Source: Deltaproteobacteria bacterium (GTDB taxonomy: Bacteria > Myxococcota_A > JAADFL01). Taken from it: a DNA stretch of 51,986 nt. Below the pieces are notes generated by a model. It was not told the origin of the DNA. It searched no databases and saw only the letters and a list, made by a program, of their open reading frames with translations. The first letter of the stretch is position 1; each line of letters begins with the position of its first letter. Both the position numbers and the translations under genes were made by a program. The stretch covers positions 1 through 51,986 of the forward strand of contig JAADFL010000080.1 in assembly GCA_013152945.1 (NCBI GenBank), in the 5' to 3' direction. Shown piece after piece: positions 1,797 to 23,507 of this stretch.

Positions 1797-1815
1797 ATAT
1801 TCGGAGGTGACGCGC

Positions 1816-3947: not shown

Positions 3948-3962
3948 CAGGAGGGAGATGAC

Positions 3963-5893: not shown

Positions 5894-5894
5894 T

Positions 5895-8246: not shown

Positions 8247-8252
8247 TCGAGG

Positions 8253-9959
8253 ATGATAACGGCCTTGTTTCTGGGAAATTTCAAGCCATTTGATGGGAGG
8301 TTACACAGGATCCCCCTTCGACCGCTCACGCTCATTTACGGCCAGAACAGCTCTGGCAAGAGTTCGATATTGCAGGCTCTCTTATTGATGAAGCAGTCGT
8401 TTGAAATGTCGAATTCATATCCTCCTGATCTAATTACCAATGGCATGCACGTAAAATTAGGAGATTACAGAACACTTGTACACAATCACAGGCAAGACGA
8501 GTCTGTTACGTTCGGGTTCAGTTTTTTTGGAGATGACAGTGATAAGCCAATTTTATTAATGGAATATTCACCGATCTCTTATGAGCCTGATAAAATAACA
8601 CCAATCACTTGTGATACTATCCAGGTCAAAAGGTGGGGGGACGAACTGCCTATTATACTTACAAATGTTCTGGGAGTTCAGGGGCATAACGAGTGGAGCC
8701 ATGAGTTTGGCTATGAGCTTGATTACGATAATGGCGATTGGTTTTGTTTTTCAGGTACAGATCCCAAGTGGCTAGAGAGTGTTATCAAGAGAGTGCCCGA
8801 GGAGGAATTAAAAGGAATTGACGATCTGGATCTTCTATGTTCGGCCCTTTGCGAGGGTAGTAAAATCAAGCTTGATAGTAAGGTCTTTGACAGCGACTGT
8901 TTATATAAAAAAGAAATGGATAGAAAAGATACAGTGTCTTCAGATACTATGGCCTTCGATGACTTTGATGACCTACTGGATAACAGCTTCGTAATTGCGC
9001 CGAATGATAATTATGGCTTCACAAGTTACAGGTTTCTCTCACAGGAGGGGGGATGGGATATTGAGGTAACGGGTAAGCGCCAGCTTTTTTGGGATCTTGC
9101 AAAAAGAATTATTGAACGGCGAAAAAATGCTTCTGTTGAAAAAAAATGCAAAAAAGCTATTGAGTTGATTCTCGAGAGCATCGATCTTGCCGAAAAGGAA
9201 GTAGATCGATTTCTCGCTTTAACAATAGATTTAATCAAGAAGTATCATTTGAAGCAGCTTAACCAATTAGAAGTTGAGCTTAGCAAGATCAATTATCTTG
9301 GAGCGTTCAGGAAACAACCCGAGAGGTTTATGGATCCATCTGTCAGGGGTAGCGACTACGTAGGGGGTGATGGCAAATATACTTCTGCAATCTTGCGTGA
9401 CGCATCGAAGCGCGAGATAGTAAACGAATGGTTGAAGAAGATGGAAATACATTATGAGCTTGGGATAGGACAGCAGATAATACCTGACTTTGGTTTCGTA
9501 GAATGGTTGAGGCTATCTGAGAAGTCAGGAGACTACTCGATCCCGTTGACGATTAGAGACGTTGGATTTGGTATATCGCAGGTTCTGCCGGTCGTGGTGC
9601 AGGCTGTCGCTGGTATGGAGCAGCTATTGTGCATAGAGGAGCCGGAGATTCATGTCCATCCTAAATTGCAGGCGGAGATAGGAGAGCTTTTGGCCCATGT
9701 TGTCTATGATTTCGATGCATCGGAAGTGAAACCCGAGCAACAGGTCATTGTGGAAACACATAGTGAGAACCTGACTTTGCGTATTAATAGGCGGATACGT
9801 GAAGGGAAGTTACCGAATGATATATTTCAAATAATATATGTTGATCACGAAAATGGTCGAGCAATTATTCATCCGATAACAGTCGGCCCAGATGGCGAAT
9901 TTGATAATGAATGGCCTGATGGATTCTTTGAGGAGGATGCTCATGAGCTCCTCGATTGA
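8253..9959 (+). CDS. AAA/OLD-like ATPase with DUF3696-type C-terminus
   Basis: A 568-residue ABC/SMC-like ATPase starting 6 bp after the RAMP gene. The Walker A motif GQNSSGKSS is at residues 30-38. The Walker B region LLCIEEPEIHVHP has acidic residues at 462-463, followed by the D-loop/H-loop segment ETHSENL at 501-507. The C-terminus (DGEFDNEWPDGFFEED) matches DUF3696, which accompanies RecF/OLD-like ATPases in defence loci. After about the first 130 bases the gene is visibly more AT-rich than the cas genes, with codon use typical of recently acquired DNA. It overlaps the next gene by 17 bp. It probably acts with that partner as a nucleotide-dependent sensor or loader. The link to cyclic oligoadenylate signalling is untested. 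Confidence 0.82.
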   Translation: MITALFLGNFKPFDGRLHRIPLRPLTLIYGQNSSGKSSILQALLLMKQSFEMSNSYPPDLITNGMHVKLGDYRTLVHNHRQDESVTFGFSFFGDDSDKPILLMEYSPISYEPDKITPITCDTIQVKRWGDELPIILTNVLGVQGHNEWSHEFGYELDYDNGDWFCFSGTDPKWLESVIKRVPEEELKGIDDLDLLCSALCEGSKIKLDSKVFDSDCLYKKEMDRKDTVSSDTMAFDDFDDLLDNSFVIAPNDNYGFTSYRFLSQEGGWDIEVTGKRQLFWDLAKRIIERRKNASVEKKCKKAIELILESIDLAEKEVDRFLALTIDLIKKYHLKQLNQLEVELSKINYLGAFRKQPERFMDPSVRGSDYVGGDGKYTSAILRDASKREIVNEWLKKMEIHYELGIGQQIIPDFGFVEWLRLSEKSGDYSIPLTIRDVGFGISQVLPVVVQAVAGMEQLLCIEEPEIHVHPKLQAEIGELLAHVVYDFDASEVKPEQQVIVETHSENLTLRINRRIREGKLPNDIFQIIYVDHENGRAIIHPITVGPDGEFDNEWPDGFFEEDAHELLD

Positions 9960-10932
9960 TGAATCTGTTTCGGTGGTGCCATTTTCTCTTGATATCGCAG
10001 GAAGTGAAGCTTCAAAGAAAAAAGAATATTCTGATGAAATACTAAACTGTTCTACGGGTTGGTTGAGGAAATTTTGGAAAAGATCTGGAGTACTTTTGTA
10101 CGACAGGGAAAAGATAGAGCGCCTTAGGCAACTTCTACCTATGCGTGCAAAGAAAATTTTAATAGATTCATTAAGCAATTTGCCAAAAATAGATAAAAAT
10201 ATGATTGGGGAAAGCCTTCCACATAGTGTTAAAAAAGAAAAAATACATATTATTACATCCAGAAATGAACGCGGTGAAAAACACTTTCCAATAGAAGAGA
10301 TACTTGGAAGTACGCTTGCAGAAGCGGCTACAAATATCTATGGGTGGCATTTCCCGATAAAACATCCTATAAGTAAGGTGGCATCATTACTTGAGCTGCC
10401 TTTTAGGCTTTTCCTTTTGGGTGCCCTAAAAGAGCTTGTAATATTTGATAGATTTATTGGAGTTCAAATTTTAAGGAAGGAAAATGATGGATTCCAATAC
10501 CTATTGAGGGCACTGGCAGAGATAATCGGAACGGCACCTAATAATATAAGAGAAGAAAGGACGAACTTGAAGATATATACCTGTTATAATACCCCGATAG
10601 ATAATGAGACACATAGACGATGTGAAAAAGATAAGGTAGTGGAGGCACTAACTGAAATGGTGGACCTTTTAAGGAAGGAAAATAAATTATTTGAGAGAAT
10701 GACCATAAAATGCTTTTTAACCAAGGATGACTGGAACCTAAGGAAATTTTCGCACCATCGATATATCAGGATTGGTGCTTTTGCATGGCTTATAGATCCG
10801 GGATTCCAGGCATTTGGTGATAAGGGCAAGATAATTAAGGAAACTTATTGCCTTAGGTATAGAACAGAGGATGCCAAGAAGTGTGAAAAGGATTTCAAGG
10901 CCAAGTCTGAATGTCAACAGATTGCATTGTGA
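9943..10932 (+). CDS. Unrecognised partner of the DUF3696 ATPase (possible nuclease)
   Basis: A 329-residue protein. The ATG at 9943 has AGGAGG six bases upstream, whereas the ATG at 9937 would have none at proper spacing. It lies inside the end of the ATPase gene, a strong sign of coupled translation. I do not recognise the family. The N-terminal third is helical with WLRKFWKRSGVLLY. The middle has alternating beta/alpha character (IHIITSRNERGEK, LLELPFRLFLLGALKELVIFDRFIG). A polar motif SHHRYIRIG at 270-278 is followed by WLIDPGFQAFGDKG, loosely like the histidine motif of PLD-type effectors. It is the most AT-rich gene in the window. A toxin or nuclease role is guessed from its position behind an OLD-like ATPase. 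Confidence 0.6.
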   Translation: MSSSIDESVSVVPFSLDIAGSEASKKKEYSDEILNCSTGWLRKFWKRSGVLLYDREKIERLRQLLPMRAKKILIDSLSNLPKIDKNMIGESLPHSVKKEKIHIITSRNERGEKHFPIEEILGSTLAEAATNIYGWHFPIKHPISKVASLLELPFRLFLLGALKELVIFDRFIGVQILRKENDGFQYLLRALAEIIGTAPNNIREERTNLKIYTCYNTPIDNETHRRCEKDKVVEALTEMVDLLRKENKLFERMTIKCFLTKDDWNLRKFSHHRYIRIGAFAWLIDPGFQAFGDKGKIIKETYCLRYRTEDAKKCEKDFKAKSECQQIAL

Positions 10933-10976: not shown

Positions 10977-12719
10977 CTACTCTCCAAGCCAAAAGGCCTC
11001 CCCTTCTTTTAAAGGCTCTTTTTCTTGTTCACTGGGTATTCTCTTATCAACGAGGCCGAAGCGGCTAACGGGTATAGCCAGCCTTTTCGCCTCATCAGCT
11101 ATTTTCTCGGCGGCAATACCCATTAGAGTGGTGCCGCCGGTGATATTAACAAAAACATGTTCAACACCAAGCAGTTCTTTTCGAACACTCTTGATCAGCT
11201 TTTCCAAGCTTTCTATGTCTGAATAAGGATCAGTCATAACCAACGGGAAGACTTTTCCTTTGTAATTGGCTTTGCCAATAGCTTCGTCGATAAATCCTTT
11301 TGTATCTTTCGAGCAAATAACGAATGTTTTGGTTATGGGGTGGTCGCTAGCCTTTTCGGCTGTTTTTATTGCGCTGAAGAGTACGCCGGGCTGCATTCCA
11401 ATGGGGCTTACCAATACTGTAGCATTTGCAGATGAGCCGATAGACAGGGCAATTTCATTAAAATCATGTAAGTAGTCATGCCAATACGAAAGAGCTCTCT
11501 TTAGATTAGCAATGAACTGTCTGTCTGATAGTGATTGTGGCCTCATACCATGGTGGTGATAGGAATTGCGTAGCTCGGAAAGTAGCCCCCAGAATTCCCC
11601 AAGCTGTACCTGATCTTTTGTCAAGGCAGATTTGAGGTCTTCATCTTTTGAGATAGCGGCGATGGCACCTAGCCAACTTGCTGCTCGTATACGAACATTA
11701 TAGTAATCTAGCCAATTGCATTTCGGATCCATTAACCAAGTTATCCACGTTACTATGTATTCATCCATTAGGCCCAATGCTGTCGCAACGCTTCCGTGCT
11801 CAAGCAGGTCATCTATTAGGCGGGCCTGGCGTTCAAGCTCTTCTCTCGATAGTGAGAGCTTGCTCTTCCATCCTGATCCAGATAGATTGTCTAGCACCTC
11901 AAAGGGCTCCATGGTTTCTAATAACAAGTCTACAAGCTCACCAGAAAGCGGTAGATGGCATCTGTTTTGTAGCAGCCTCTTGAAAGGCTTGGAGCTTTTA
12001 TCGCGGAAACGTTTAATTATTTGACCAAGCTCGATAGGTAACCCAGATAGGTACATCTCTGATATTATCTTTAGGTTCTTTGCGATATCGTAGGAGGCAG
12101 GTTCTTGTGGCCCGTTTTCTAGTAGATTTGCTATTGCATGGGCACTACCTATTTCTCGGAGAACCTGTATGGCATGAAACCATTTGGGCAGCAACAGCAA
12201 GGGTGTAAGATCAAAAAATGGGCTTGGTTTGTTTCGTTGCAGCAAGCCATAATATGCTCCACGTATGCGAACATTTCGCAATGCAGCAAGGTAAAGAACG
12301 GCCGTATATGTCAAAAATGAGAAATGGCGCAACCCGTGAGTAATGTCTACGGTCAGTTCAATCCCTCCTTTGGCAGAAATGGCTTTTGAAACCTTTGTCA
12401 GGAATTCATCGATACTTCTTGGCTCATGGCTTGAGGACACATCGATTGAACCAACCTTATAGTGCTTGGAGAGGGCATCCCATAAAAGGGGATAGCTTTC
12501 CTCTTTTGCATCTGGTGTGCATATTGCCAATATCGTATCAGGTCTTTCTGGCTTGTCCAGTAAATTTAGCAGCGCAATTGGAGCGAGCTTGGCAGCCGAT
12601 GTCTTTCCTCCAAAGGAGTAATAGGCCTCTTGTGGGGCTTTCCCTAGAACGGTTAGAAGGACATGGTTTGATGTTGGTTCCCTATGGCTGGCAGCTTTCA
12701 CCTGATTCGGATCGAACAT
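10977..12719 (-). CDS. Double-CARF HEPN ribonuclease (Csx1/TM1812-like)
   Basis: A 580-residue protein on the strand opposite the effector operon. The N-terminal CARF domain (about 20-200) has the DxTHG signature DITHGLRHF at 125-133, typical of TM1812/Csx1-type sensors of cyclic oligoadenylates. A central helical part contains RNSYHH, a HEPN RNase motif (Rx4H, R384 and H389). The C-terminal 140 residues form a second CARF-like Rossmann domain, with LVSPIGMQPGVLFSAIK near 436-452 and VNITGGTTLMGIAA at 524-537. When Cas10 makes the messenger, such proteins cut RNA non-specifically. Two CARF domains flanking one HEPN in a single chain is unusual. It is convergent with the ATPase pair. A 247-bp gap upstream leaves room for its own promoter. 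Confidence 0.85.
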   Translation of the reverse strand: MFDPNQVKAASHREPTSNHVLLTVLGKAPQEAYYSFGGKTSAAKLAPIALLNLLDKPERPDTILAICTPDAKEESYPLLWDALSKHYKVGSIDVSSSHEPRSIDEFLTKVSKAISAKGGIELTVDITHGLRHFSFLTYTAVLYLAALRNVRIRGAYYGLLQRNKPSPFFDLTPLLLLPKWFHAIQVLREIGSAHAIANLLENGPQEPASYDIAKNLKIISEMYLSGLPIELGQIIKRFRDKSSKPFKRLLQNRCHLPLSGELVDLLLETMEPFEVLDNLSGSGWKSKLSLSREELERQARLIDDLLEHGSVATALGLMDEYIVTWITWLMDPKCNWLDYYNVRIRAASWLGAIAAISKDEDLKSALTKDQVQLGEFWGLLSELRNSYHHHGMRPQSLSDRQFIANLKRALSYWHDYLHDFNEIALSIGSSANATVLVSPIGMQPGVLFSAIKTAEKASDHPITKTFVICSKDTKGFIDEAIGKANYKGKVFPLVMTDPYSDIESLEKLIKSVRKELLGVEHVFVNITGGTTLMGIAAEKIADEAKRLAIPVSRFGLVDKRIPSEQEKEPLKEGEAFWLGE

Positions 12720-12966
12720 CTTTAAGCACCCACCTTCTTTATTGATAAGGAGTTAAGAGCTAAAGCCTCCCAAAATATTTACGCTTCTTGTGCTTTTTTA
12801 AAGTATGCCAAATAAAGCAATGCTTGATTTTTATATGTTTGTCAATAGTTGGCCGGTGATTACTGATTGATGCCGGGTATGGAAGAATCAATCAAAACCA
12901 AGGGACCCTCATTGGAGTGTCAGATTACAGTGGCCTGTAATGTCATCTATTACGGAGGGAAAGGCC

Positions 12967-13263
12967 ATGGGTACGAGTGACCTTGTAAGTGGCCTCATGG
13001 CCCTCCTCGACTCGGGTGACGAGGAGAGCGCAAGGGCATTACTCAAGAATCGTGATACGTCCGCCATAGTTGACTCTGGCTTCCACCTGGGCCTGGCAAA
13101 GGTCGCCGAGGAACTCGGCGAGGCATCCAGGGCTGCCACGGAGTACAACTACTCACTTCGGGATGATCCAAAGAACGTCGATGCAATGCTAGGCTTGGCA
13201 AGGCTTCGTGCCGACATGGGCCAGGTGGACAAGGCTCTCACCAGCCCTCCCTACCCAGGTTGA
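12967..13263 (+). pseudogene. Truncated tetratricopeptide-repeat protein
   Basis: An ATG behind GGAGGG opens a frame of about 98 residues. It begins MGTSDLVSGLMALLDSG and carries TPR-like helices (FHLGLAKVAEELGEASRAA and VDAMLGLARLRADMGQVDKA). After VDKAL the sequence changes abruptly to LTSPPYPG and stops in repeat-rich DNA at 13264 onward, so the protein breaks off in the middle of a TPR helix. This suggests the 3' part was lost when the repeat and decayed CRISPR DNA were joined. The base composition of the surviving part resembles the cas genes. Its original role is unknown. It might still be translated as a short peptide. Confidence 0.6.
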
Positions 13264-13300
13264 TTTTCTGGGTACCTAAAATATGCTGTTATTTCACGAA

Positions 13301-13328
13301 GTAGGGGCGGTTCGCGAACCACCCCTAC
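13301..13328. repeat. Inverted repeat centred on GGTTCGCGAACC
   Basis: Two 14-nt arms (GTAGGGGCGGTTCG / CGAACCACCCCTAC) are complementary except for one position and have no loop. No T-run follows, so it is more like a dispersed palindromic element than a terminator. A related but shorter palindrome occurs at 13841-13860. The two flank the decayed CRISPR array and the 42-residue peptide gene. Confidence 0.7.
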
Positions 13329-13377
13329 GAGATCCAATCCTAATAATTTGCATTTTTTCACCTGGACCAGGCCGGCT

Positions 13378-13470
13378 TTCCACGCCCTCACCTCTTTTTG
13401 TCCACCTCTCCCGCAGAGCAGGCTAGGGGGATTGTTTGGTGCCAACGATTCCAGGGGCAACGGGAATTTT
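13378..13470 (-). repeat. Dispersed composite repeat, family B (inverted copy)
   Basis: This stretch reads, on the reverse strand, like 36563-36655: CCCTGGAATCG, TTGGTRCCA-like spacer, then CCCTCG/CCTAG, CTCTGCGGGAGAGG and a GGTGAGGGCG tail. The window end (51940-51986) carries the start of a third copy. This copy has diverged and lost part of the TCCCCCTCGCCC segment. It lies between the truncated TPR gene and the decayed CRISPR repeats and so marks a rearranged junction. Confidence 0.6.
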
Positions 13471-13481
13471 TGACATTTTAA

Positions 13482-13664
13482 TTCGGCTATCGCACCCGGT
13501 TAAGAGGGGATTGAGACTACACCTTTGAAGAAACTGCTTTTGAGAACTCTTTCAGTTCGAATATCTTCTCCAATTAGGAGGAGATCGAGACTCCATGTCA
13601 GATTAGTGTCAGTATCCGCGTCTATGTATTCGAAGACCTCCCCTGGTCGAGAGGGGAATGAGAC
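13482..13664 (+). CRISPR. Decayed CRISPR array, three 36-bp repeats
   Basis: Three segments of exactly 36 bp begin with TTCG and end with GAGAC: 13482-13517, 13556-13591 and 13629-13664. Their cores are GGTTAAGAGGGGATTGAGAC, AATTAGGAGGAGATCGAGAC and GGTCGAGAGGGGAATGAGAC. They agree pairwise at about 23-26 of 36 positions. The intervening unique segments are 38 and 37 bp, the normal spacer size. Copies two and three can each form a 6-7 bp hairpin upstream of the 3' tag, as type III repeats do; copy one cannot. The constant period and conserved ends point to an old array. The sequence divergence says it is not under active acquisition. No other array is visible in the window. Confidence 0.6.
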
Positions 13665-13697
13665 TAATAGCTCGGTTAGAGCAAAAGGAGTTTAGAT

Positions 13698-13826
13698 ATG
13701 AAAGTTGCAATTATTCTGATTTTGATCGCCGGAGCATTTTTAGGCGCAACTGGCCCGGCCGAGGCGGTTCGACTCGTAGCTGATGGGCTGGCGCAGCTAG
13801 TGCTAGCCCTCATTTCGATTCTCTAA
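13698..13826 (+). CDS. 42-residue hydrophobic peptide
   Basis: An ATG eight bases after AAAAGGAG encodes 42 residues starting MKVAIILILIAGAFLGA, a single membrane-spanning or signal-like helix. A short polar turn (PAEAVRLVADG) and a second hydrophobic segment LAQLVLALISIL follow, ending in TAA. No family is recognised. Good ribosome binding and an entirely apolar composition argue for a real membrane microprotein rather than a chance frame. It opens the plus-strand cassette that ends with a similar 38-residue peptide at 16976. It lies directly after the last clear degenerate CRISPR repeat. Candidates are a holin-like toxin, a small subunit of a membrane complex, or a secreted peptide. Confidence 0.5.
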   Translation: MKVAIILILIAGAFLGATGPAEAVRLVADGLAQLVLALISIL

Positions 13827-13840
13827 AGGAGAAGCTGCCT

Positions 13841-13860
13841 GGGCGGTTCACGAACCGCCC
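13841..13860. repeat. Palindrome GGGCGGTTC-AC-GAACCGCCC
   Basis: Perfect 9-bp arms are separated by two bases. This is the same palindrome family as 13301-13328. No U-tract follows, so a rho-independent terminator is unlikely although a hairpin would form in RNA after the 42-residue peptide gene. Confidence 0.65.
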
Positions 13861-13867
13861 TATCGGG

Positions 13868-13903
13868 TGAGGGAAAATATTGTCTTTAGGAGGAGATTAA
13901 GAC
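13868..13903 (+). repeat. Possible fourth, half-conserved CRISPR-like repeat
   Basis: The 3' sixteen bases (AGGAGGAGATTAAGAC) match the second repeat of the decayed array at 14 of 16 positions, while the 5' half does not match. It lies 203 bp beyond the third repeat, with the 42-residue peptide gene and a palindrome between them. It could be a terminal repeat separated from the array by an insertion, or a chance match to a purine-rich motif. Confidence 0.35.
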
Positions 13904-13968
13904 GATACGCCGATGCACCAGGTCTTATCTTCCGCGGATCCGGCAAGAATTGGAAGGAGGCAAAACCC

Positions 13969-14397
13969 ATGAACAAAAAAGAAGGAGAACTTCTCCTGCT
14001 CGCGGTGATCACGTACTTGGGCACCGGCGCCGGGATACTGGCGCTTGTAATAGGTTGGAGCCTCGACCGCGCAGGGGCCTTCCACAGCTCGCCTGTTACG
14101 CCCATAGCCATAGGCGTGTGGTCGTTCTTTGCGCTCTTGTACCCACTCGTGCATGATGCAAAAAAGGAAGAAGAAACTGCGAAAAAGGCGGTCTCTGAAG
14201 AGGACTTGTTTGCAGAGCTGATGAAAAGGGCAAAGAAATACCAAGCGAAAGCTCCGGATCTGGAAGAGCAAGCAGTCATTAAGCCTTTGAGAAAGAAACC
14301 GGAATACAAGCGCAATGTCAGTGGTCTCAAGATAGGCTTGAACAAGTCGGCCAAGGTTACGAAGAAAGAAATACCTGAAGCCAATAACAAGAGATAA
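13969..14397 (+). CDS. Two-TM membrane protein with charged cytoplasmic tail
   Basis: The ATG at 13969 follows GGAAGGAGG and is preferred to the upstream in-frame codon at 13867, giving 142 residues. Two hydrophobic helices are evident: about residues 8-29 (LLLLAVITYLGTGAGILALV) and about 44-62 (VTPIAIGVWSFFALLYPLV). About 75 residues of Lys/Glu-rich, probably cytoplasmic, helical tail follow. No family is recognised. It lies in the plus-strand cassette between the 42-residue peptide and the YdjM-like gene, each with its own strong Shine-Dalgarno sequence. A further 183 bp separate it from the next gene; they contain an imperfect inverted repeat around 14500-14545 and perhaps a promoter. Confidence 0.6.
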   Translation: MNKKEGELLLLAVITYLGTGAGILALVIGWSLDRAGAFHSSPVTPIAIGVWSFFALLYPLVHDAKKEEETAKKAVSEEDLFAELMKRAKKYQAKAPDLEEQAVIKPLRKKPEYKRNVSGLKIGLNKSAKVTKKEIPEANNKR

Positions 14398-14580
14398 TAC
14401 CATAAACCAGGGCCACCCGGAAAACGGCTGCAGAAAAGAATAAAGCAATGGGAGTATGGGGTGTTCCTGACATTATTTTATGGGTAAGCGGACATCCATG
14501 GTCAGACGGACAAAAATATTCATTTCTTTTTTGTCAGACCAGGTCATATTCCGTCGTCCTCTTTCCCAGGAGGTAAAAGC

Positions 14581-15510
14581 ATGACTGTAAAGATACCCGT
14601 AATTGAAACCTATGTGCCGGCACTACAATCATTGCCGCCCGACAGGGCAGGGGCATGGAGCACATTCTTTGACGAGTTTGCCTATGCAATAAGGAACACC
14701 AAGGGCGATTTGCTTAAACAATGGGCCAAGGACAGTCTTGCAATTGCGATAAAAACCTCTGCGAACCGGGCAAGCAGTTTTATCGGTATGCTTTCAGCGG
14801 TTGCAAGAGGCGCATACAACGAGTTCAAGAGGTTTTTAGGTGCACTTTTCAGGTGGGAATTAGGAGCATATTTCAACGATTTGTGCCACAGGCTGTGGAC
14901 AGGACTTAGCGATCTTTGGCACAGGATGCGTACGTTTGTCGGATATGCAAAAGGCTCGGTCATCAATATCTGGAACGCGCCCAGAGAAGTGCTGGTAGAA
15001 CAAGCCGCAGCCCTGCTTGGCGGAGTCCTGGGTTTCATGTTCATGGGAGGTATGGGCGACGGCGGCCTTATCGACGATGATTGGAAGGTGCTGGAAACAC
15101 ACAGGAGCATATTCTTTCATTCAATGTTGATAGCCCTCGGGTTCGAGGTGTGCGTACGAAGCGCGTTTCGGCTCGTCGAGCTCGTGTACCAAGGGCTGCC
15201 AAAGGAACACGGCAGGATTTGGGAGCGTATTTTATCCGTTGGAAACAGGTTCTCCGGAGCACTTGCCAGGGGCGGATGGGTCGGCGTAGCCACGCACCTG
15301 ACAATGGATTCGCATATACAGGGGTGGACCCCGTACAAGGACCTGCCTATCGCGCTTCCGAACTGGGCTCATCATCTTGTCATGGATGTAAATGCGGCTG
15401 GTGCGGGCTGGATTGGCTGGCATTGGCATGACAAAATCAAGAGGCACCTGCGAGTAAACAAGCTGGTTCCGCCACTGGTGGACGGTAAGGCGGTCAAATG
15501 TTTCGATTAG
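14581..15510 (+). CDS. YdjM-like putative metal-dependent membrane protein
   Basis: 309 residues from an ATG behind CCCAGGAGG. The N-terminal half is helical. The C-terminal half has a metal-ligand pattern like that of YdjM/DUF457 membrane hydrolase-like proteins. This consists of GGLIDDDW with acidic residues 165-167, THRSIFFHS with H174 and H180, and, after further hydrophobic helices, ATHLTMDS with H239 and D243. In YdjM relatives these D/H residues line a membrane-embedded metal site, but no substrate is established in general. The protein ends with GWIGWHWHDKIKRHL. Similarity is by motif and spacing only. It is the largest member of the plus-strand cassette and probably sits in the inner membrane. 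Confidence 0.5.
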   Translation: MTVKIPVIETYVPALQSLPPDRAGAWSTFFDEFAYAIRNTKGDLLKQWAKDSLAIAIKTSANRASSFIGMLSAVARGAYNEFKRFLGALFRWELGAYFNDLCHRLWTGLSDLWHRMRTFVGYAKGSVINIWNAPREVLVEQAAALLGGVLGFMFMGGMGDGGLIDDDWKVLETHRSIFFHSMLIALGFEVCVRSAFRLVELVYQGLPKEHGRIWERILSVGNRFSGALARGGWVGVATHLTMDSHIQGWTPYKDLPIALPNWAHHLVMDVNAAGAGWIGWHWHDKIKRHLRVNKLVPPLVDGKAVKCFD

Positions 15511-15617
15511 GCTGCGTAAAGGGAAGAAGGCATGAAATTTTTTAAAGAAATCGTTCCCGGCATCGCGGTTCCGGGAACAGTATTCCCGGGATCGATTACA
15601 GGAACAAGGAGGTAAAA

Positions 15618-16028
15618 ATGTCAGGCGCAACAATGACACAAGGGATAACAGGCAACTTGTTGTACTGGACTTCAAATCTTGCAAGGTTGACCATAGGCAT
15701 TTTGCGTGATCCAAATGTGCCTTCCAGGGCAAAATGGCGGCTTGCTTTTGCAGGTGTATACCTTGTTATCCCAATCGATCTCGTGCCTGAAAAATGGTTC
15801 ACCCACATCGGTTACATCGACGATGCCCTGGTGTTACTCACTGCCTTGAGAAGCCTGCTGGCCGATACCGACGAGGAGATCGCACAAAGGCACTGGGACG
15901 GCAGGCCAAGAGACTTGCAAAGACTGCGTTCGGCGCTCATCCGCTGGGATGACAAGGTCAGGCTGACGCTTCGAAACCTTATCGCAAGGCTGATCGGCAA
16001 CGGGTCCGGGGAAATGAGTACTGCCTGA
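15618..16028 (+). CDS. DUF1232 (YkvA-like) membrane protein
   Basis: 136 residues started by an ATG behind CAAGGAGG. The core AFAGVYLVIPIDLVPEKWFT followed by GYIDDALVLLTALRSLL is the DUF1232 signature (Y..sPiDliPd.ip..GylDD). It forms a short amphipathic/transmembrane hairpin in a large family of unknown biochemical function. The C-terminal 50 residues are charged and helical. The 107-bp gap before it contains GC-rich inverted segments (TTCCCGG / CCGGGAA) near 15553-15592 that could form hairpins. It belongs to the same strand-uniform cassette as its neighbours. Membrane localisation is likely. Confidence 0.75.
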   Translation: MSGATMTQGITGNLLYWTSNLARLTIGILRDPNVPSRAKWRLAFAGVYLVIPIDLVPEKWFTHIGYIDDALVLLTALRSLLADTDEEIAQRHWDGRPRDLQRLRSALIRWDDKVRLTLRNLIARLIGNGSGEMSTA

Positions 16029-16204
16029 CAATAAAAACCTTGCATAATAGTTTTCCTGAAGCTCTGCTTACCTAACGAAAAGAAACAACTTTTTGCCAAA
16101 GGTTTCTGCTCCAGGTGTCGCTACAGGAGCCGTCCGAATGATCGCCCCGGCTTTCAAACCCGGGTGCTGCGATTCCATGTCAGGAACCCTGGTTTTTGCC
16201 TGTC

Positions 16205-16912
16205 ATGATCTACAGGCAGGCAACAACCAACAGGCTTGCATGGAGGCCGGCTTTGGGGTCGCTTTTTACAAAGTTTTTCAAATGGGTGGTTCGCGTAACC
16301 GTAATCGGCTTGCTGTTTTCAGCATTTGTAATGCCTGAACTGGTTCATTACCTTGGGTTCGACCCTGCGGCGGCCCTGGCTACGTTTGTGAAAAACCTTT
16401 TGCCGATGCATGTACAATCAATACCTGTCATGCTTGTGAGACCAAGACTCGTGTATCCCTTGTCCTTTGATTCATCCGGGAATATGCCCGACCTCGGTTC
16501 ATGCAACAGGCCGGGGTGCAGGCTTGCAAAGCTTGCCCTTGAACGCCTCGGCACTCCGTACAGGTTCGGCGCAAAAGGACCTTATGCCCTTGATTGTTCC
16601 GGTCTTGTTTACCAGGTCCTTTCCGAAGCCGGCATGAGCAATCCGCCGAGAAGCGCAAGGGCACAGTACAGACTTGGAAGCAGTGTGCCGAAGAAAAAAC
16701 TTGCGCCGGGAGACATGGTCTTTTTCCAGACCTGGAGGCCGGGGCCGTCACATGTCGGAGTTTATATTGGCCGGGGACTGTTCGTGAATGCCTCGTCTTC
16801 GCAAGGAATGGTGGTCGTGGAGCACCTGGACTCCAGGTACTACAGGATGAGGTACATCGGCGCAAGGAGAGTCGCGACAAACAGGTTAGGACCAAGAAAT
16901 CGTTCATTATGA
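16205..16912 (+). CDS. Membrane-anchored NlpC/P60 cysteine peptidase
   Basis: 236 residues from the ATG at 16205; a TTG at 16196 is the alternative, and neither has an ideal ribosome binding site. An N-terminal hydrophobic segment (VTVIGLLFSAFVMPELV) anchors or exports the protein. The C-terminal 130 residues are an NlpC/P60 domain. The catalytic Cys131 lies in DCSGLVYQV and His183 in PSHVGVYIG. The third polar position, usually His, is Asn195 in FVNASSSQG. Enzymes of this fold cleave peptidoglycan stem peptides in the periplasm or the wall of a competitor. Context with small membrane peptides suggests a lytic or envelope-remodelling module rather than housekeeping. A frame change upstream of 16205 cannot be ruled out. 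Confidence 0.72.
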   Translation: MIYRQATTNRLAWRPALGSLFTKFFKWVVRVTVIGLLFSAFVMPELVHYLGFDPAAALATFVKNLLPMHVQSIPVMLVRPRLVYPLSFDSSGNMPDLGSCNRPGCRLAKLALERLGTPYRFGAKGPYALDCSGLVYQVLSEAGMSNPPRSARAQYRLGSSVPKKKLAPGDMVFFQTWRPGPSHVGVYIGRGLFVNASSSQGMVVVEHLDSRYYRMRYIGARRVATNRLGPRNRSL

Positions 16913-16975
16913 TAAAAAAACCGGTCAGAATTCGTGGTCAATTGCAGTCGACAAAGTAAAGAAGGAGGTGGCGCT

Positions 16976-17092
16976 ATGGTAAAAGGTTTTCTTATTATGC
17001 TGGGTTTAATAGGTGTGCTGGCAGGCTTTGGCGGTGGGGGCTTAATGGCCTCAATCGCAGGAGGGGTGAAATTTTTGCTACATCTCTTGTAA
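16976..17092 (+). CDS. 38-residue glycine-rich hydrophobic peptide
   Basis: GAAGGAGGTGG lies just upstream of an ATG encoding 38 residues (MVKGFLIMLGLIGVLAGFGG, then GGLMASIAGG and VKFLLHLL) before TAA. The Shine-Dalgarno match is among the best in the region, and the product is almost wholly apolar with a GGGG turn. It lies 63 bp after the NlpC/P60 gene and is the last plus-strand gene of the cassette. It mirrors the 42-residue peptide at its start in size and character, not in sequence. A pore-forming or holin-like peptide is plausible. No family is recognised. Confidence 0.5.
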   Translation: MVKGFLIMLGLIGVLAGFGGGGLMASIAGGVKFLLHLL

Positions 17093-17151
17093 AGCATGAA
17101 ACGACGTTTGAAAAAACATGATTCTTATTTTCGTGGGGAGACGATGTAATA

Positions 17152-18741
17152 TCACCCCGGGACCATTAGCCGGCCCGCCTTTTCCAGGTCACGCAGGAAA
17201 CGCTGCACCATTCTCTTCCTCTTGCCTGCGGACATGACAGCCACCTGGTGCATTCTGTGAGTGAACATGTCACGCCTGGCCTTTAGGCTCCGTAGGTCCG
17301 AGACGCCGGACTCGTCGAGCAGGTTCCTTGTTTCCAGAACATATAGAAACCTGCTGTTGTGGTGAGAAGTTTTGAAATCAAAGCCGAGGGACATCGTCCT
17401 GTTCATGTCCCTTAAGAGTTGCTCGAACACCAGGGAGCCGTACATGGCGGCTGCAAGCTCATCATCCGCTTCGAGCATGCTGCGGGCGCGATCCAGCCAT
17501 ACCGAGTGCGACGGACCGCTTCGATCCCCGGTAGACCTTGACACAGCCCAGATTTCCTCTGTGACCTCCTCCAGGTTCTGTATCAATTCGTTCAGCAGCG
17601 CCATGTCAAAGGAACCCACGATTATCCTGAATATGTTGGTCTTTACCTGTTGCGCTTCCATGGCATTCAGGTTTTCCAGTTCAAACCTCAGCTTGTAGTC
17701 GGCGTACTCATTTTCGATGGTGATGAAGATGTCTTTTTGCTTGTTCAATTCTTCCTTTATTGTGTTAAGCGTGCTTTCCTCGTTTTTCTTGGCTGCAAGC
17801 GCCGAGGCGCCTGCAACCACCGGGAGCAAGGGCAGGAAAAGGTTGGTAAGGGCCCATTGCATCGTGTGCCAGCCGGCGGCGAGCATCAGTGTGCTGACTG
17901 CACTTGTCCCAATGCCCCTGATAATCCATTTCATGCCCGGATCATCCATGTAGCTGATGAACTTTAGTGGCTCCTCGTACGTGGAACCTGCAGCCCACTG
18001 TCCTTTTGTAACATGCCCTATTTGCAACTCTTTATTGATTGATTGTACCTTGTCCTGCCATCTTTGCGCCAAATCTCTTTCCAAGTCTTTTGAAAGAGTC
18101 TCTTTGAACCCACGTATAATCTCTTCTGAAAAGTGGCGTTTGAATATCTGTTCCAGCAAGGTGTTGCCACCCTTGTTAGAGCCATGCAGGTCGGTCGCAA
18201 GACCTTTGAGCCTGTCGGAGCCGGTCTTTTGAGCCGTTTTTTCGATAATATGCGCCAAACCGTTGGAAAATGTGCTGCTGATAATGTAGTAAGAATCCTT
18301 GAACCCGGTATACCACTTGTGGTCGTTTTCAAGATCGATAACTATTTTCTTGAACGCGTCGGCTATGAACCTGGTAACCATTTCCTTGTATATCTTTGCT
18401 GTTTCCGATGAAAGGTTGCCGGCGAACTTGTCGAGATTATCAACCTTTCGCATGTATTGTTCGCGGAGGCTGTAGCACAGCAACAGGGCTTCACCGATTC
18501 GCTCGGCAGCAGCCTCGCCGTCAATATCGAGATCGGCATCCAAATCAGCATCCAAATCAATGTCATGGACGGACCCTACAATATGACCCGGGTCATATCC
18601 GTTGAATGCAGCCGAAGAACCCAACAGTGAGTAAATCCTGCCTGCAAAGCCTGGATCGGCCTGCCGGATTTCATTGAGTATTCTACCGGTCTTTCCGATT
18701 GCAGGACACCTGTTCTCAAGGGTGCTGTCCATCCGCAGCAT
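17152..18741 (-). CDS. Membrane protein with coiled coil and C-terminal HEPN-like domain
   Basis: 529 residues; the ATG at 18741 has GGGAGG upstream on the minus strand. Near residue 65 lies an Asp-repeat (DIDLDADLDADLDID). A long helical region follows, then a hydrophobic hairpin at about 285-325 (IGTSAVSTLMLAAGWHTM, LFLPLLPVVAGASALAA) and a coiled coil. The last 120 residues look like a HEPN domain. A helix with ARSMLEADDELAAAMYGSLV and another with FLYVLETRNLLDE precede RRDMFTHRMHQ, where R490 and H495 give the Rx4H RNase motif. HEPN domains are ribonucleases in many defence systems. It is divergent from the sigma-like operon and its end faces the 38-residue peptide. The whole-protein family is not recognised. 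The HEPN call is by motif only. Confidence 0.55.
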   Translation of the reverse strand: MLRMDSTLENRCPAIGKTGRILNEIRQADPGFAGRIYSLLGSSAAFNGYDPGHIVGSVHDIDLDADLDADLDIDGEAAAERIGEALLLCYSLREQYMRKVDNLDKFAGNLSSETAKIYKEMVTRFIADAFKKIVIDLENDHKWYTGFKDSYYIISSTFSNGLAHIIEKTAQKTGSDRLKGLATDLHGSNKGGNTLLEQIFKRHFSEEIIRGFKETLSKDLERDLAQRWQDKVQSINKELQIGHVTKGQWAAGSTYEEPLKFISYMDDPGMKWIIRGIGTSAVSTLMLAAGWHTMQWALTNLFLPLLPVVAGASALAAKKNEESTLNTIKEELNKQKDIFITIENEYADYKLRFELENLNAMEAQQVKTNIFRIIVGSFDMALLNELIQNLEEVTEEIWAVSRSTGDRSGPSHSVWLDRARSMLEADDELAAAMYGSLVFEQLLRDMNRTMSLGFDFKTSHHNSRFLYVLETRNLLDESGVSDLRSLKARRDMFTHRMHQVAVMSAGKRKRMVQRFLRDLEKAGRLMVPG

Positions 18742-18889
18742 AGCAAACCTCCCCGGTTTCGAAAAAGCATATCAAAAGGAATGCAACATAGTCCATACGG
18801 ATTCGTTTCTACTTGACCGTGAGCGGATATTCTTGCATTTATTCCATATATCATTCGGCGGCGGCAGGTCGAGGAAGGAGTGTTTCAAT
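18742..18889. promoter_or_regulatory. Divergent intergenic control region
   Basis: These 148 bp separate the start codons of the HEPN-like membrane protein and the sigma-like operon, so promoters for both must lie here or just inside. On the plus strand TTGACC (18813-18818) is followed after about 17-18 bases by an AT-rich CATTTATT, a weak candidate housekeeping promoter. Ribosome binding sites are clear on both sides (GGGAGG on the minus strand, AGGAAGGAG on the plus strand). No operator repeat is obvious. Confidence 0.35.
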
Positions 18890-19981
18890 ATGACGCCCGG
18901 GGACAGGATGAAGAAAATAATCCAGGCCGCAAAAGACCTGTTGATATCTGATGATGAAAGGAAAATACAGCAAAAATACCTGGAGGTACTCTTGCCGCTG
19001 GTGGATATCCTGGCAAAAAAAATAGTTTGCAGTATGGTCATGAACTCCCGGCAATTCAGAAAGGAGCAAGGAGAAGGCTTGTTGCCGGACGAGGTGTACC
19101 TGGATTTCCTGGAAAACAAGGCTGTCACCCGGAATTTTGTTGAACGCCTCGTGAGTGCAGAAAACCCGCTTGGGTTCCTGTACAGGACGATTCACAACCT
19201 GGTAGTGGACCACTTAAGTAAACTTGGGCCCTCGATAGTCGACCGGCACGGCCGTGACGCGGGACAAGAACCGGATCCGGTCGAGAACATGGCGGCGCCT
19301 GAAACCTTCGACATGCAGGCCCAATTGGAAAGAGCCGAGTTGTCACTGGAGCTTAAACAGCTTTTCGAGAGTTTGCCGGACAAGGACAGGTTTCTCATCA
19401 TGGTAGTGCACGTGGACAAGCTCTATCCACCCGCAGTTCAACTGGTGAGGGCGCTTTCAGAAAAACGCGGGGTTGACCCGGAACGAGTCATGCAGGACCT
19501 CGATGCCAGGGCCGAAAGGTATTGGAACAAGAGCGCCGACCTTGGAAAACTAGTAGAAATGAGGTCGAACAGGGTATCCACTGCCTGGGAAATGATTGCT
19601 CGAATAGAAGCCGAAATATCGTCAAGACACGGGGAGTTGGAAACACAGCCGGAGTCTGCACCTGGTTTGGATGACGAACAGCTTAAAAAATTAATGCCGG
19701 TAACAAGGGCCGGACTGGAGAAACTGGGCATAGGTGATCTCAATGCATTGTTGAGAATAATATATGGGAAGTTACAGCGCAGGATCGAATTGCTCGAAGA
19801 AGCCAAGAAGGGGCTGCAATCCGGGATGCCCGGAGGTTATGCTTGGGACGAGGTGGCCTCGATACTCGGAGAATTGAAACCAGGCATGGACGAACGCGAG
19901 AAGGAGAGAATAGTCAACACCTTGACCAAGCGCAGCATAAGACTTTCAAAGAAGTTGAACGAGATGAGGAAATCCGGATGA
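18890..19981 (+). CDS. Sigma-70-family-like protein with extended C-terminus
   Basis: 363 residues from the ATG at 18890 behind AGGAAGGAG. The longer upstream frame from 18674 runs through the divergent promoter and is rejected. GFLYRTIHNLVVDHLSKL at 95-112 matches region 2 of ECF-type sigma factors (W-LYRIARN--ID-LR). LKQLFESLPDKDRFLIMVV, further on, resembles the start of region 4. The expected helix-turn-helix then diverges. A further 170 residues end in YAWDEVASILGELK and RSIRLSKKLNEM, which again look like a sigma region 4 recognition segment. It may direct RNA polymerase to specific promoters or be a degenerate regulator. It overlaps the next gene by 4 bp (ATGA). DNA binding is inferred. 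Confidence 0.55.
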   Translation: MTPGDRMKKIIQAAKDLLISDDERKIQQKYLEVLLPLVDILAKKIVCSMVMNSRQFRKEQGEGLLPDEVYLDFLENKAVTRNFVERLVSAENPLGFLYRTIHNLVVDHLSKLGPSIVDRHGRDAGQEPDPVENMAAPETFDMQAQLERAELSLELKQLFESLPDKDRFLIMVVHVDKLYPPAVQLVRALSEKRGVDPERVMQDLDARAERYWNKSADLGKLVEMRSNRVSTAWEMIARIEAEISSRHGELETQPESAPGLDDEQLKKLMPVTRAGLEKLGIGDLNALLRIIYGKLQRRIELLEEAKKGLQSGMPGGYAWDEVASILGELKPGMDEREKERIVNTLTKRSIRLSKKLNEMRKSG

Positions 19982-20532
19982 TTTCAACGAACATTCCCAG
20001 GTGGAAGGTTAAGCACCCTGACTTGGGTGCTAATGAATTGGTTCTCACGGGTTTCAGCAAGAAATTGAAAGCCAGGCACCACGCATGGAAACATTTCCTG
20101 AATCTGTCCGAGGCCTGGGATCAATGCAAGCCCGTCGAGCATCCAACCAGGTTGATCAAGAAACTAACCGGGGGAAACCTTTTTCTTTTTAACGAAAGAA
20201 TGCCGGAACTCTCCGAGCCGGATAAAAAAGTGCTGGAAGATGCTGTTTCCGCGTACCAGGATGCTATCATGAAAGTTAATTCATCGAGTCATATATTCGT
20301 CGGAGCACGTCAGAAAGACAATAAGAGACTGTTGACTTATATAGTATCCGATTTCGGAGTTTTCAGCGTATTCGGTAGAAATTTGTATCCTGTAGGACAA
20401 AAAGACGTGTCAGAAATCCTGACTTCGTACCGTCCTTCAACTCGTGAGGGGGCAGGGAATGTGAAAAAGAGTCATTATTTACGTTCTGCTGTGCGAAAGC
20501 TGGTCAGGAAGCTGAATAAGAGCGCGCGCTAA
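19978..20532 (+). CDS. Unrecognised 184-residue basic protein
   Basis: The start codon overlaps the stop of the sigma-like gene. The N-terminal third is polar and helical. The C-terminal half has a beta-strand-rich pattern (SSHIFVGARQKDNKRLLTYI, VSDFGVFSVFG), then EILTSYRPSTREGAG and a very basic helix (RSAVRKLVRKLNKSAR). The order beta sheet, TSYRPS-like turn, then basic tail recalls small RNase toxins of the BECR/RelE type, but no catalytic set can be identified and this is only a suggestion. Its place between a sigma-like protein and a Lon-like peptidase would equally suit a regulator or peptidase substrate. Confidence 0.55.
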   Translation: MISTNIPRWKVKHPDLGANELVLTGFSKKLKARHHAWKHFLNLSEAWDQCKPVEHPTRLIKKLTGGNLFLFNERMPELSEPDKKVLEDAVSAYQDAIMKVNSSSHIFVGARQKDNKRLLTYIVSDFGVFSVFGRNLYPVGQKDVSEILTSYRPSTREGAGNVKKSHYLRSAVRKLVRKLNKSAR

Positions 20533-20554
20533 AAAAGCGCCTAGAAGGTTTGAC

Positions 20555-21601
20555 ATGAAAAAAGATATTGAAGTATTGGCTGGATTACTCGTACGGATAA
20601 TGGACGAGGGTATACAGGACGACACGGACTTCTTCGACCTGGCGGCGACAGGCGAGTTGATTCGCAGAATAACGGCCCTTGAAACCGATCAGGTGCCGGA
20701 TGAGGCAATTGAGGCGATCAGGAAGTATGAGCAAGCCCTTGATAAGGGCTTCGACATCGAGGTCGGCACGTCACCGATCCTCCAGGCAAGCCTGGACAGG
20801 CTCGAGAAGTTTTCCAAAAGAGACATAATGGAGCGCAGAGGCGAGGAGTATGAAGATCTTCTTGATGCAGTGGAAGACTCGCTCGCCTACACGGTCGCAG
20901 CATACAAGGCAGGCGTTATCGAGGCCCCAGAGGTAAGAAGATCCGGGCAACAGGCATATCAAAGGATATATGCGCTGGCCCACCGGGTACCCGAACTCTG
21001 GGATTATGCAGAAGAAAGGTACCTGGGCGCGGCAGATGACCCGGATTTCCCGGGACTTTACGCGTTTTTCGAGCCTTTGAGGCTCTATTCAAGCTTCAAC
21101 CTTGCATTGGAAGATTCGTTTTATCTGATGTCCGGGTCAAAACGAAAAGAGTTGATAGAAAAGGCGCTGGATAATGTTTCAAAGAAAAAGACTTCACCTC
21201 GGGAAACCGTGGTTGAAAAGTTGCGAGAAAAATTTTCCAGGCTCGAGCAATTAATACCTGTGAACACTGTACGGTTGGACCCGGTTGCATTATTCAAGGG
21301 GGATAAAAAGGAACCCCCGAGGATGAAGATACTCCGGGACTTCACGTCACTCCAGCTTATACAAGATGAAAAGGGGCTTTGTCTTACTGTCGAACGGGGG
21401 CACTCCCTTGAGGTCAAGCATGCTTCACTTGACAAAGTCATACTATCCCCGAAAAGAGTTAGCAATCATACCACAAGGCTCAAAAGCGGCATCGGGCCGT
21501 TTTCCGGCCGATTGGAACTTGCTGTTTTGATAGACGGTGAAACTATCGAACTTCCTGGATTTCTCCTGCAACCCGGGAATAACGGGGTTGATCGTGGGTA
21601 A
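20555..21601 (+). CDS. Unrecognised 348-residue helical protein
   Basis: An ATG 22 bp after the previous gene (weak AAGG upstream) encodes a mainly helical, acidic protein without signal peptide or membrane segment. Residues 1-220 look like a helical bundle (LDAVEDSLAYTVAAYKAGVI, LAHRVPELWDYAEERYLG). The last 90 residues turn beta-rich (LCLTVERGHSLEVKHASLDK, GRLELAVLIDGETIELPGF). The stop overlaps the GTG start of the following gene. No family is recognised. Tight coupling suggests it works in a complex with the neighbouring sigma-like and peptidase proteins. Confidence 0.6.
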   Translation: MKKDIEVLAGLLVRIMDEGIQDDTDFFDLAATGELIRRITALETDQVPDEAIEAIRKYEQALDKGFDIEVGTSPILQASLDRLEKFSKRDIMERRGEEYEDLLDAVEDSLAYTVAAYKAGVIEAPEVRRSGQQAYQRIYALAHRVPELWDYAEERYLGAADDPDFPGLYAFFEPLRLYSSFNLALEDSFYLMSGSKRKELIEKALDNVSKKKTSPRETVVEKLREKFSRLEQLIPVNTVRLDPVALFKGDKKEPPRMKILRDFTSLQLIQDEKGLCLTVERGHSLEVKHASLDKVILSPKRVSNHTTRLKSGIGPFSGRLELAVLIDGETIELPGFLLQPGNNGVDRG

Positions 21602-23507
21602 AGGAAAAAACAGGGAACATGATAATTCCGTGAATCAATTGCTTAAAGAGCACGGTGTAAATACAGACCCTGTTGCCAAGGCCCTGGAGATGGGATGCCC
21701 GGTGATTGCCGCCAGAAAGGTGCTGAACGACCCGAACCCGAGCGCAGTGCGCAGGCTGGAGCAACTTAAGGCCGGAGAGTTCGACATTGCGCTTCCAAAA
21801 TCTTGTCGCGAGAGGTCGGTACTCGAGCAAGCCATTGAAAGAGAGCTTCCTGCAATAGCTGAGAAACCCGGTGTGTTGGCGCTGGCCCTTTTGCAAAACG
21901 GTGAGGAAACGTGTTTTGCCGCACCGTACAGGCTGGACGCAATGTCCAGGAAATTTGCCGATCTTGATGCCTTGGGAGCAATTGCAGGAAGGGCGGTCGA
22001 AGCGGCCATGCAGTTGTTGCAGGACAGGTACGGCCCGTTGCAATTGGATGCCGCATGGAATTTCGAATTCTTCCTTCTGAACGGTAAGGCCATGCAGGTC
22101 GAATTAAGGGACACGTCAAGCGCCGGACTTGCAGCAGCATTGGCATTTGTGCACAAGGCAGCAGGATTGGATGGTAAGATTGCCGCAATGGGTCGTGTGG
22201 ACGCTGACGGCCGTGTAAGAGGGGTCGAGGGAGTAGAAAAAAAGCTTTCTGCTCTGAAGCGGGAGGCCCCGTTTGTTAACAAGGTATACCTGCCCGGCAG
22301 CAATCGCCTTTTGCCTGGGCAAGAGAAAGATTTGGGCCTGGAACTGGTGTATGTAGATACTGTTGCAGAGGCAATCGATGATTTAATCGGGGACCATGGT
22401 GAAAAATTATTTTCAAGGTTGGACCCGCCTGGGGCTGTAAAAAAGGCAGAGGAATTCGAGATAATGGGGATGCATGGGCCTGCCGAAACCTTGGCGATAA
22501 AAGCCTTGGAGGCTGCCAACGAATTACCCGACCTGGGAGATTATGACAGGCTCAAGGTACAGGTGTTGGCAAATGCAACAAGGGCAATAAACCTTGTGCA
22601 CAAGGGAGAGGCATACCAGGCCCTGGAAGTATTCAGGGAAATGGACTCCCTGATTGAGAAAGCAGATACAAAACTCAAAAACGACGTGATATTACCCGGG
22701 ACCATGACACTGGCGACCTGCCAAAGGGCAAGCGCGTTAATAGACATAATCGAACCGCAAAAGGCTGTCGAAACACTGGAAAAAATCGATGATTCGTACA
22801 GGTCCGGAGGTATCTTCCACGTGCTTGCTTACTGGGGGACTCTTTCAAGGGCTTTTTGTGCATGCGACAGGTTGGAAGATGCTGAAAGAGCTGCAAGGCA
22901 CCAGAACGAAACTAAAATTCCTGGAAATCTTTTATACCAGAGGCCCAGGAACCTATGCAATCTGGCTGATGTGTTTTACAAGAAGGCCAGGAAGGGTTAC
23001 CAGGGTGCCATTGACGAATTGAAAGATGTCCTGGAAAGGGCAAAAGATTATAACAGTAAAATTGCTGATGATGTTCAGAGGCAGGGCAATGAGAATTATC
23101 TCAAACTGTATTGGTGCCGATTGTACAGCCTGACCGGTGAATATGAAAAAGCACTGGACCTTGCCGGGGAAATAGAAAACTCGGACAGTGGATTTCCTGC
23201 ACACCTGATGTTCAGATACGCCGGCCTGGCACTTGCAAGGGCAGGGCGAACAGACCAAGGTTACAAGCTTCTTTGCATGGCTTCGGACAAGGTTGAGGAA
23301 GATATTGGTCCTTTTGTAAGACTTGTCCTGCTGACATCGGCAGGTGAGGCATGCCTACTGGCCCTGGAAAATGAATTCAGCGGCGGTGAGTATTATGGCA
23401 CGATGTTCCTTGATGCATTCATGGAATACAAACCGGGCTTGTTGAAAGGCGATTATTCAGACTTGAAAACAACAGTGAAAAAGGTCCTTGATCTGATACC
23501 TTACTAG
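21594..23507 (+). CDS. Lon-type (S16) peptidase domain fused to TPR-like repeats, no ATPase
   Basis: 637 residues from a GTG at 21594 that overlaps the upstream stop. An ATG at 21537 in the same frame has no ribosome binding site. Residues about 80-270 resemble the proteolytic domain of Lon. RDTSSAGLAAALAFVHKAAG gives the nucleophile Ser176 in SSAG. AAMGRVDADGRVRGVEGV then EKKLSALKRE gives Lys217 of the Ser/Lys dyad, 41 residues later (43 in E. coli Lon). The AAA+ module and Lon N-domain are missing. From about 290 to the end the protein is made of TPR-like helical pairs, suited to binding a partner. It closes the operon begun by the sigma-like gene and may process one of its neighbours. Confidence 0.68.
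   Translation: MGKGKNREHDNSVNQLLKEHGVNTDPVAKALEMGCPVIAARKVLNDPNPSAVRRLEQLKAGEFDIALPKSCRERSVLEQAIERELPAIAEKPGVLALALLQNGEETCFAAPYRLDAMSRKFADLDALGAIAGRAVEAAMQLLQDRYGPLQLDAAWNFEFFLLNGKAMQVELRDTSSAGLAAALAFVHKAAGLDGKIAAMGRVDADGRVRGVEGVEKKLSALKREAPFVNKVYLPGSNRLLPGQEKDLGLELVYVDTVAEAIDDLIGDHGEKLFSRLDPPGAVKKAEEFEIMGMHGPAETLAIKALEAANELPDLGDYDRLKVQVLANATRAINLVHKGEAYQALEVFREMDSLIEKADTKLKNDVILPGTMTLATCQRASALIDIIEPQKAVETLEKIDDSYRSGGIFHVLAYWGTLSRAFCACDRLEDAERAARHQNETKIPGNLLYQRPRNLCNLADVFYKKARKGYQGAIDELKDVLERAKDYNSKIADDVQRQGNENYLKLYWCRLYSLTGEYEKALDLAGEIENSDSGFPAHLMFRYAGLALARAGRTDQGYKLLCMASDKVEEDIGPFVRLVLLTSAGEACLLALENEFSGGEYYGTMFLDAFMEYKPGLLKGDYSDLKTTVKKVLDLIPY

Follow-up and report, generated by a model that had tools for sequence, protein, structure and literature searches.

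The 51,986-base stretch analysed here (the window) is a single contig, JAADFL010000080.1, of a Deltaproteobacteria bacterium whose source genome amounts to 4.8 Mb in 218 contigs. Genes B to E of this window form a four-gene operon (18890-23507, forward strand) that encodes a sigma-factor-like protein, two proteins without a family match, and a Lon-type (S16) Ser/Lys peptidase joined to TPR/PPR-like helical repeats; a fifth gene, A, diverges from the operon and encodes a membrane-hairpin protein with a HEPN-like C-terminal domain. The S16 gene recurs in four other genomes of the phylum, with a sigma gene upstream wherever the contig extends far enough, an architecture that resembles the protease-released sigma factors of two CRISPR types. 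The coordinates of the window genes, of their counterparts, and of neighbouring features are collected in Table 1.

Table 1. Positions of the operon, its homologous loci, and surrounding features
Feature	Locus	Position	Strand	Length	Content
Gene A	Window	17152-18741	-	529 aa	Helical; hydrophobic hairpin at about residues 296-319; C-terminal HEPN-like domain with R490-x4-H495
Intergenic region	Window	18742-18889	.	148 bp	Between divergent starts of A and B
Gene B	Window	18890-19981	+	363 aa	Sigma-70/ECF-like protein
Gene C	Window	19978-20532	+	184 aa	No family match
Gene D	Window	20555-21601	+	348 aa	No family match
Gene E	Window	21594-23507	+	637 aa (656 aa from GTG at 21537)	S16 and TPR/PPR-like repeats
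Sigma-like gene	G158 (L071)	10090-10677 or 10788	-		
C-position gene	G158 (L071)	9338-10093	-	251 aa	
D-position gene	G158 (L071)	8262-9341	-	359 aa	
E homologue	G158 (L071)	6529 to 8259/8265	-		
ECF sigma gene	G377 (L073)	1844-2428			
Middle gene	G377 (L073)	1234-1836		200 aa	
E homologue	G377 (L073)				Frame-broken, cut by contig end
E homologue	G334 (L067)	8052-9920	-		Full length
Membrane protein	G158 (L071)	278-1909			3′ of E homologue
Membrane protein	G324 (L072)	2811-4673			3′ of E homologue
Pycsar and type I restriction-modification genes	G158 (L071)	12067-19901			Divergent from the operon
Type III-D-like cas operon	Window	201-10932			
AAA_15/OLD-like ATPase	Window	8253-9959			Near end of cas operon
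Overlapping protein	Window	9892-10932		346 aa	End of cas operon
CARF protein	Window	10977-12719	-	580 aa	
Truncated TPR gene	Window	12940-13263			
Palindrome, two copies	Window	13305-13324 and 13841-13860		20 nt	
Repeat-like copies	Window	13498-13911			

An earlier note, made from the DNA letters alone, had placed five open reading frames at these positions, with A and B diverging across 148 bp and the operon genes overlapping or almost touching, and each of these descriptions proved accurate. The end of gene B shares 4 nt (ATGA) with the start of C, a gap of 22 nt separates C from D, and D overlaps E by 8 nt if translation of E begins at the GTG at 21594, or by 65 nt if it begins at the GTG at 21537, which opens the longest frame. 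The start at 21594 is the most likely, because it is preceded by GGGG and yields the numbering in which the putative nucleophile is S176. When the region was shuffled 200 times, no stretch free of stop codons exceeded 254 codons; the observed frames are far longer, with the exception of gene C, which is within the chance range by length alone. The intergenic region is probably a promoter region shared by A and B.

The product of gene E consists of an N-terminal stretch of about 100 amino acids, an S16 domain at about residues 100-290, and C-terminal helical repeats. The S16 domain is 33% identical to the canonical Lon of another genome over 189 amino acids (E-value 8e-12), and a profile of four members of the gene E family matched Lon chains in the PDB (E-value 4e-7). 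In the alignment with Lon, S195 and K236 of the 656-amino-acid frame correspond to the catalytic Ser and Lys, and the Ser/Lys dyad that marks Lon S16 peptidases is intact in the window protein. These observations bear out the earlier identification of a Lon-type Ser/Lys peptidase and of its nucleophile, since S176 and K217 are the same residues counted from the 21594 start. The description of the peptidase as free of CARF and SAVED also holds, in that no such model of Pfam, NCBIfam, or PADLOC matched it. The repeats are clear in the homologue from genome G324 (TPR_12, E-value 1e-12) and give only a weak PPR match in the window protein itself. Like the ATP-dependent Lon proteases (LonA/LonB), the gene E product has the S16 fold and the Ser/Lys dyad; unlike them, it has no AAA+ ATPase domain, the S16 portion alone matching Lon, and it is fused to helical repeats and encoded in an operon with a sigma factor.

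Homologues of gene E were sought in six-frame translations of 377 genomes from the phylum and then with a two-sequence profile. Four true homologues were recovered, all from the same phylum as the window: the six-frame search found that of G334 (31% identity, E-value 5e-41), and the profile found those of G158, G324, and G377. Pairwise BLAST of the proteins is in agreement (E-value 6e-10 for window and G377, and 9e-7 for window and G158). Exact-peptide and motif scans of viral and genome contigs (85,000 genomes) found no relative, and neither did searches of plasmid DNA or tblastn searches; some of the motif queries held two or three invented S16 variants that broadened the pattern and carry no evidential weight. 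Most of the weak S16 matches encountered in the searches were canonical Lon or RadA and were set aside.

Around these homologues, the order sigma-C-D-E is exact in G158, where every junction overlaps by about 4 nt, and G377 has the order sigma-D-E, with one middle gene. In G324 a 360-amino-acid gene shares 4 nt with the E homologue, the contig stopping upstream of this gene; the G334 contig ends at the start of E. A sigma gene is therefore found upstream of the E homologue, with one or two genes between, in both of the contigs that reach its position. The sigma gene of G158 matches TIGR02937 with an E-value of 7e-7, and that of G377 matches it at 7e-10 and Pfam Sigma70_r4_2 at 7e-6, above the cut-off. 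Co-conservation of all five genes, set beforehand as a test of the earlier proposal, was thus found in part: the sigma and S16-TPR genes recur together in G158 and G377 and genes occupy the C and D positions (both in G158, one each in G324 and G377), but no recurrence of A was detected. A chance juxtaposition of five unrelated genes would account for a gene A without relatives and for C and D that are not recognisably conserved; it is contradicted for B and E by the recurrence of a sigma gene and an S16-TPR gene, with overlapping genes, in distant genomes, and is regarded as very improbable.

The sigma assignment of the window's gene B draws on weaker evidence than that of its counterparts in G158 and G377, but on evidence that is one-sided. 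Residues from about 80 to 204 align to sigma region 2.3/2.4, the linker, and region 4, and are followed by a C-terminal extension of about 160 amino acids. All six NCBIfam matches are models of the sigma-70 family, the best being TIGR02937 (E-value 0.0013) and SigW (E-value 0.0019). Searches by tblastn retrieved RpoE-like sigma factors in two genomes and a sigma-70 gene on a Novosphingobium plasmid, SigW stood in the second row of a PDB search (E-value 0.68), and these matches all fall in one register. Sigma70_r2 gives 12 bits to B in a scan of its own genome, and the score of B against a profile of the extracytoplasmic function (ECF) sigma factors of that genome is reached by 6 of 1000 shuffles. 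An hhalign comparison of the ECF profile with B gave no match, and an AlphaFold2 model from the single sequence was unusable, with a predicted local distance difference test score (pLDDT) of 42. The earlier description of B as sigma-factor-like stands in so far as every match is a sigma model and the genes in the same position in G158 and G377 are clearly sigma factors; it falls short at the curated cut-off.

Genes C and D belong to no known family in Pfam or NCBIfam, and D has no match in the PDB. As read from its sequence, D is helical in its N-terminal part and apparently beta-rich at its C-terminal end, and hydropathy indicates no membrane segment in either protein. The counterpart of C in G158 and those of D in G158 and G324 share position with the window genes without detectable sequence similarity, and neither C nor D was detected in G334 at an E-value of 10, the contig stopping at the start of E. 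Between G158 and G324, the ratio of nonsynonymous to synonymous substitution (dN/dS) is 0.22 for E and 0.32 for D, indicating purifying selection on both and therefore an operon that is functional in two genera. The case for the middle genes is positional, because it is made by similar size, overlap with E, and the lack of a membrane segment; D is a candidate cytosolic anti-sigma factor or protease substrate, and C a candidate accessory or anti-sigma protein.

Operons with a similar complement of genes are known from CRISPR systems. In the CRISPR-Lon system of type III, a Lon-type peptidase (CalpL), its partner (CalpT), and an ECF sigma factor (CalpS) are encoded in one operon (PMC11417357, PMC12751052). 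The operon in the window likewise combines a Lon-type Ser/Lys peptidase, one or more partner genes, and a sigma factor, and the candidate partner, too, is soluble rather than membrane-bound. It differs in having TPR-like repeats where CalpL has SAVED, in having four genes instead of three, in its position outside a type III operon, and in the lack of a recognisable CalpT among its middle genes; the gene E product is also closer by sequence to housekeeping Lon. The type III-E module of Csx29 (TPR-CHAT), Csx30, Csx31, and CASP-sigma, in which an activated protease cuts a sigma inhibitor (PMC10028731), shares with the operon a TPR-containing protease, two extra genes, and an ECF-like sigma factor. 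In this case the differences are a peptidase of the S16 (Ser/Lys) rather than the CHAT class, middle genes without sequence match to known families, and no Cas7-11; the type III locus upstream in the window has separate III-D-like Cas7 proteins, which gRAMP models match in part only. The operon belongs to neither system, because it has no SAVED, CHAT, or Cas7-11 and lies outside a type III operon. Predicted conflict systems of the EACC/caspase/trypsin type also bring a peptidase together with TPR and ECF sigma genes; they differ in the class of the peptidase, in the order of the genes, and in their other domains, and S16 is not among the peptidases described in the parts of that source considered here (PMC8195603). 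No published description of an S16-TPR/sigma operon was found in the literature searched, which is a partial collection.

The logic of protease, partner, and sigma factor suggested by the earlier note is thus supported as a conserved architecture resembling the CalpL/T/S and type III-E modules. In a proteolysis-gated sigma switch of this kind, B would be co-produced with an inhibitory cytosolic partner, namely D and perhaps also C. The TPR repeats in the gene E product would detect a signal of infection, perhaps a phage protein or a stress protein, and this would activate the Ser/Lys site of the S16 domain, which would then cut the partner. The freed B would guide RNA polymerase to a small set of target genes, possibly including A and the operon itself.

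This switch is given an even chance of being correct, mainly because of what has become of the dyad in two homologues, and several other observations also weigh against it. The G334 homologue has exchanged the catalytic Ser for Ala and the Lys for Arg in an S16 domain that otherwise remains well conserved (for example, REAPFV), and is apparently a natural pseudo-protease; the G377 homologue has Gly in place of the nucleophile, within a frame-broken stretch. Neither C nor D of the window shows similarity to D of G158 and G324 by hhalign or MAFFT, nor does either carry a motif that could be recognised as that of a substrate or an anti-sigma factor. Gene B scores 18.4 bits against TIGR02937, for which the curated cut-off is 42.9, the window operon lies outside the type III operon, and no defence system is evident in those parts of the G334 and G324 flanks that were read. 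TPR proteins commonly act through binding, and the altered dyads of G334 and G377 would fit a partner switch without proteolysis, in which the S16 fold is a binding or scaffold domain, the sigma factor is controlled by sequestration, and an intact dyad is a remnant or is used in some members only. This alternative is rather doubtful, as the window protein retains both dyad residues and their equivalents, S149 and K192, are conserved in both members of the 84% identical G158/G324 pair. The S16 domain would appear to be an enzyme in some members of the family but seemingly inactive in one or more others.

The part played by gene A is less secure than that of the operon. The motif R490-x4-H495 conforms to the R-x4-6-H pattern of HEPN domains, and an AlphaFold2 model built from the single sequence of the C-terminal 125 residues, of low confidence (pLDDT 60), was matched by VIA-align to the HEPN domain of Csm6 (Z 9.0), HEPN TM0613 (Z 8.0), HEPN AF_0298 (Z 7.7), and further HEPN chains. 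Foldseek returned no significant match for this model (E-value > 0.8), though HEPN chains recur, and Z scores of 9 or less can come from common helical bundles. The earlier HEPN assignment thus keeps its motif and a Csm6 domain as top structural match, with a fold that is suggestive only; a HEPN identity for the C-terminal domain is plausible, not established. The claim that the HEPN protein is part of the system is not upheld, as no relative of A was detected in the 377 genomes and nothing at the homologous E loci clearly corresponds to it. Gene A may adjoin the operon without belonging to it, and the shared intergenic region is the one link between them.

Downstream of the E homologues in G158 and G324 are genes for single-pass membrane proteins that are 36% identical overall, with a conserved C-terminal domain and unrelated N-termini, possibly a variable-effector arrangement. 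They were considered as HEPN counterparts of A and rejected, since only the C-terminal half is common and R-x4-H is present in one and missing in the other.

The link to defence inferred earlier has gained support from the G158 copy, which adjoins complete Pycsar and type I restriction-modification genes; the former comprise PycC (E-value 2e-148), an E2 protein with a SEC-C motif, and the cNMP-TIR effector PycTIR (E-value 3e-71). Circuits of ECF sigma factors and proteases are common in stress responses, and it is possible, if short of probable, that the operon is an ECF signalling unit for general stress or development that takes no part in defence and happens to lie near defence genes. The G158 copy alone directly adjoins recognisable defence genes, that of the window being 4-8 kb from cas genes and the stretches read in G334, G324, and G377 showing no clear defence system. 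Against such a role stand the sparse and patchy distribution (five genomes) and the complete Pycsar and type I restriction-modification neighbourhood, both typical of accessory defence genes, and defence is taken as the likelier role, not a demonstrated one. A more specific version posits a CRISPR-independent family of Lon-TPR sigma switches whose TPR repeats sense infection directly; the sigma factor thereby set free would induce defence genes, in the window including a HEPN RNase with a membrane anchor that diverges from the operon at the shared promoter region. This version is considered unlikely.

The type III-D-like cas operon upstream encodes a Cas10 that keeps its GGDD motif (residue 287), and it ends with an ATPase gene and an overlapping gene of markedly lower G+C content (about 41%). 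Adjacent is an apparent CARF-HEPN-CARF effector of this locus, in which a HEPN-like RNSYHHH motif stands in the centre, between a cas_TM1812/DxTHG-type CARF at the N-terminus (TIGR02221, E-value 2e-16) and a Card1-like CARF at the C-terminus. Four imperfect, irregularly spaced copies of a sequence resembling the 3′ end of a CRISPR repeat (GGGGATTGAGAC type) have the appearance of a decayed array; they are closely preceded on the 5′ side by a truncated TPR gene and flanked by two copies, 516 nt apart, of the palindrome GGGCGGTTCRCGAACCRCCC. The earlier tie of the operon to type III CRISPR is not supported: unrelated genes intervene, with 4.4 kb between the type III locus and gene A, and none of the homologous loci is beside type III genes in the stretches read. 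A Calp-type ancillary effector, activated by the cyclic oligoadenylate of the nearby Cas10, would share the Lon-partner-sigma logic and would have in this Cas10 a source of its signal; it is very improbable, given that no CARF or SAVED model matches A, B, C, D, or E, that the type III locus is already served by a separate CARF protein, and that no homologous operon has such a locus beside it in the sequence read.

In two CRISPR types (CalpL/T/S and type III-E CASP), the transcriptional arm is known to be a sigma factor that a protease sets free. A conserved operon with the same parts, in which a TPR sensor replaces the CRISPR input, suggests that this switch exists outside CRISPR and offers a concrete gene set for testing. 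Such a non-CRISPR switch could be the source from which CRISPR systems recruited these modules, and the protease-sigma switch may be a general route by which bacteria induce immunity genes.

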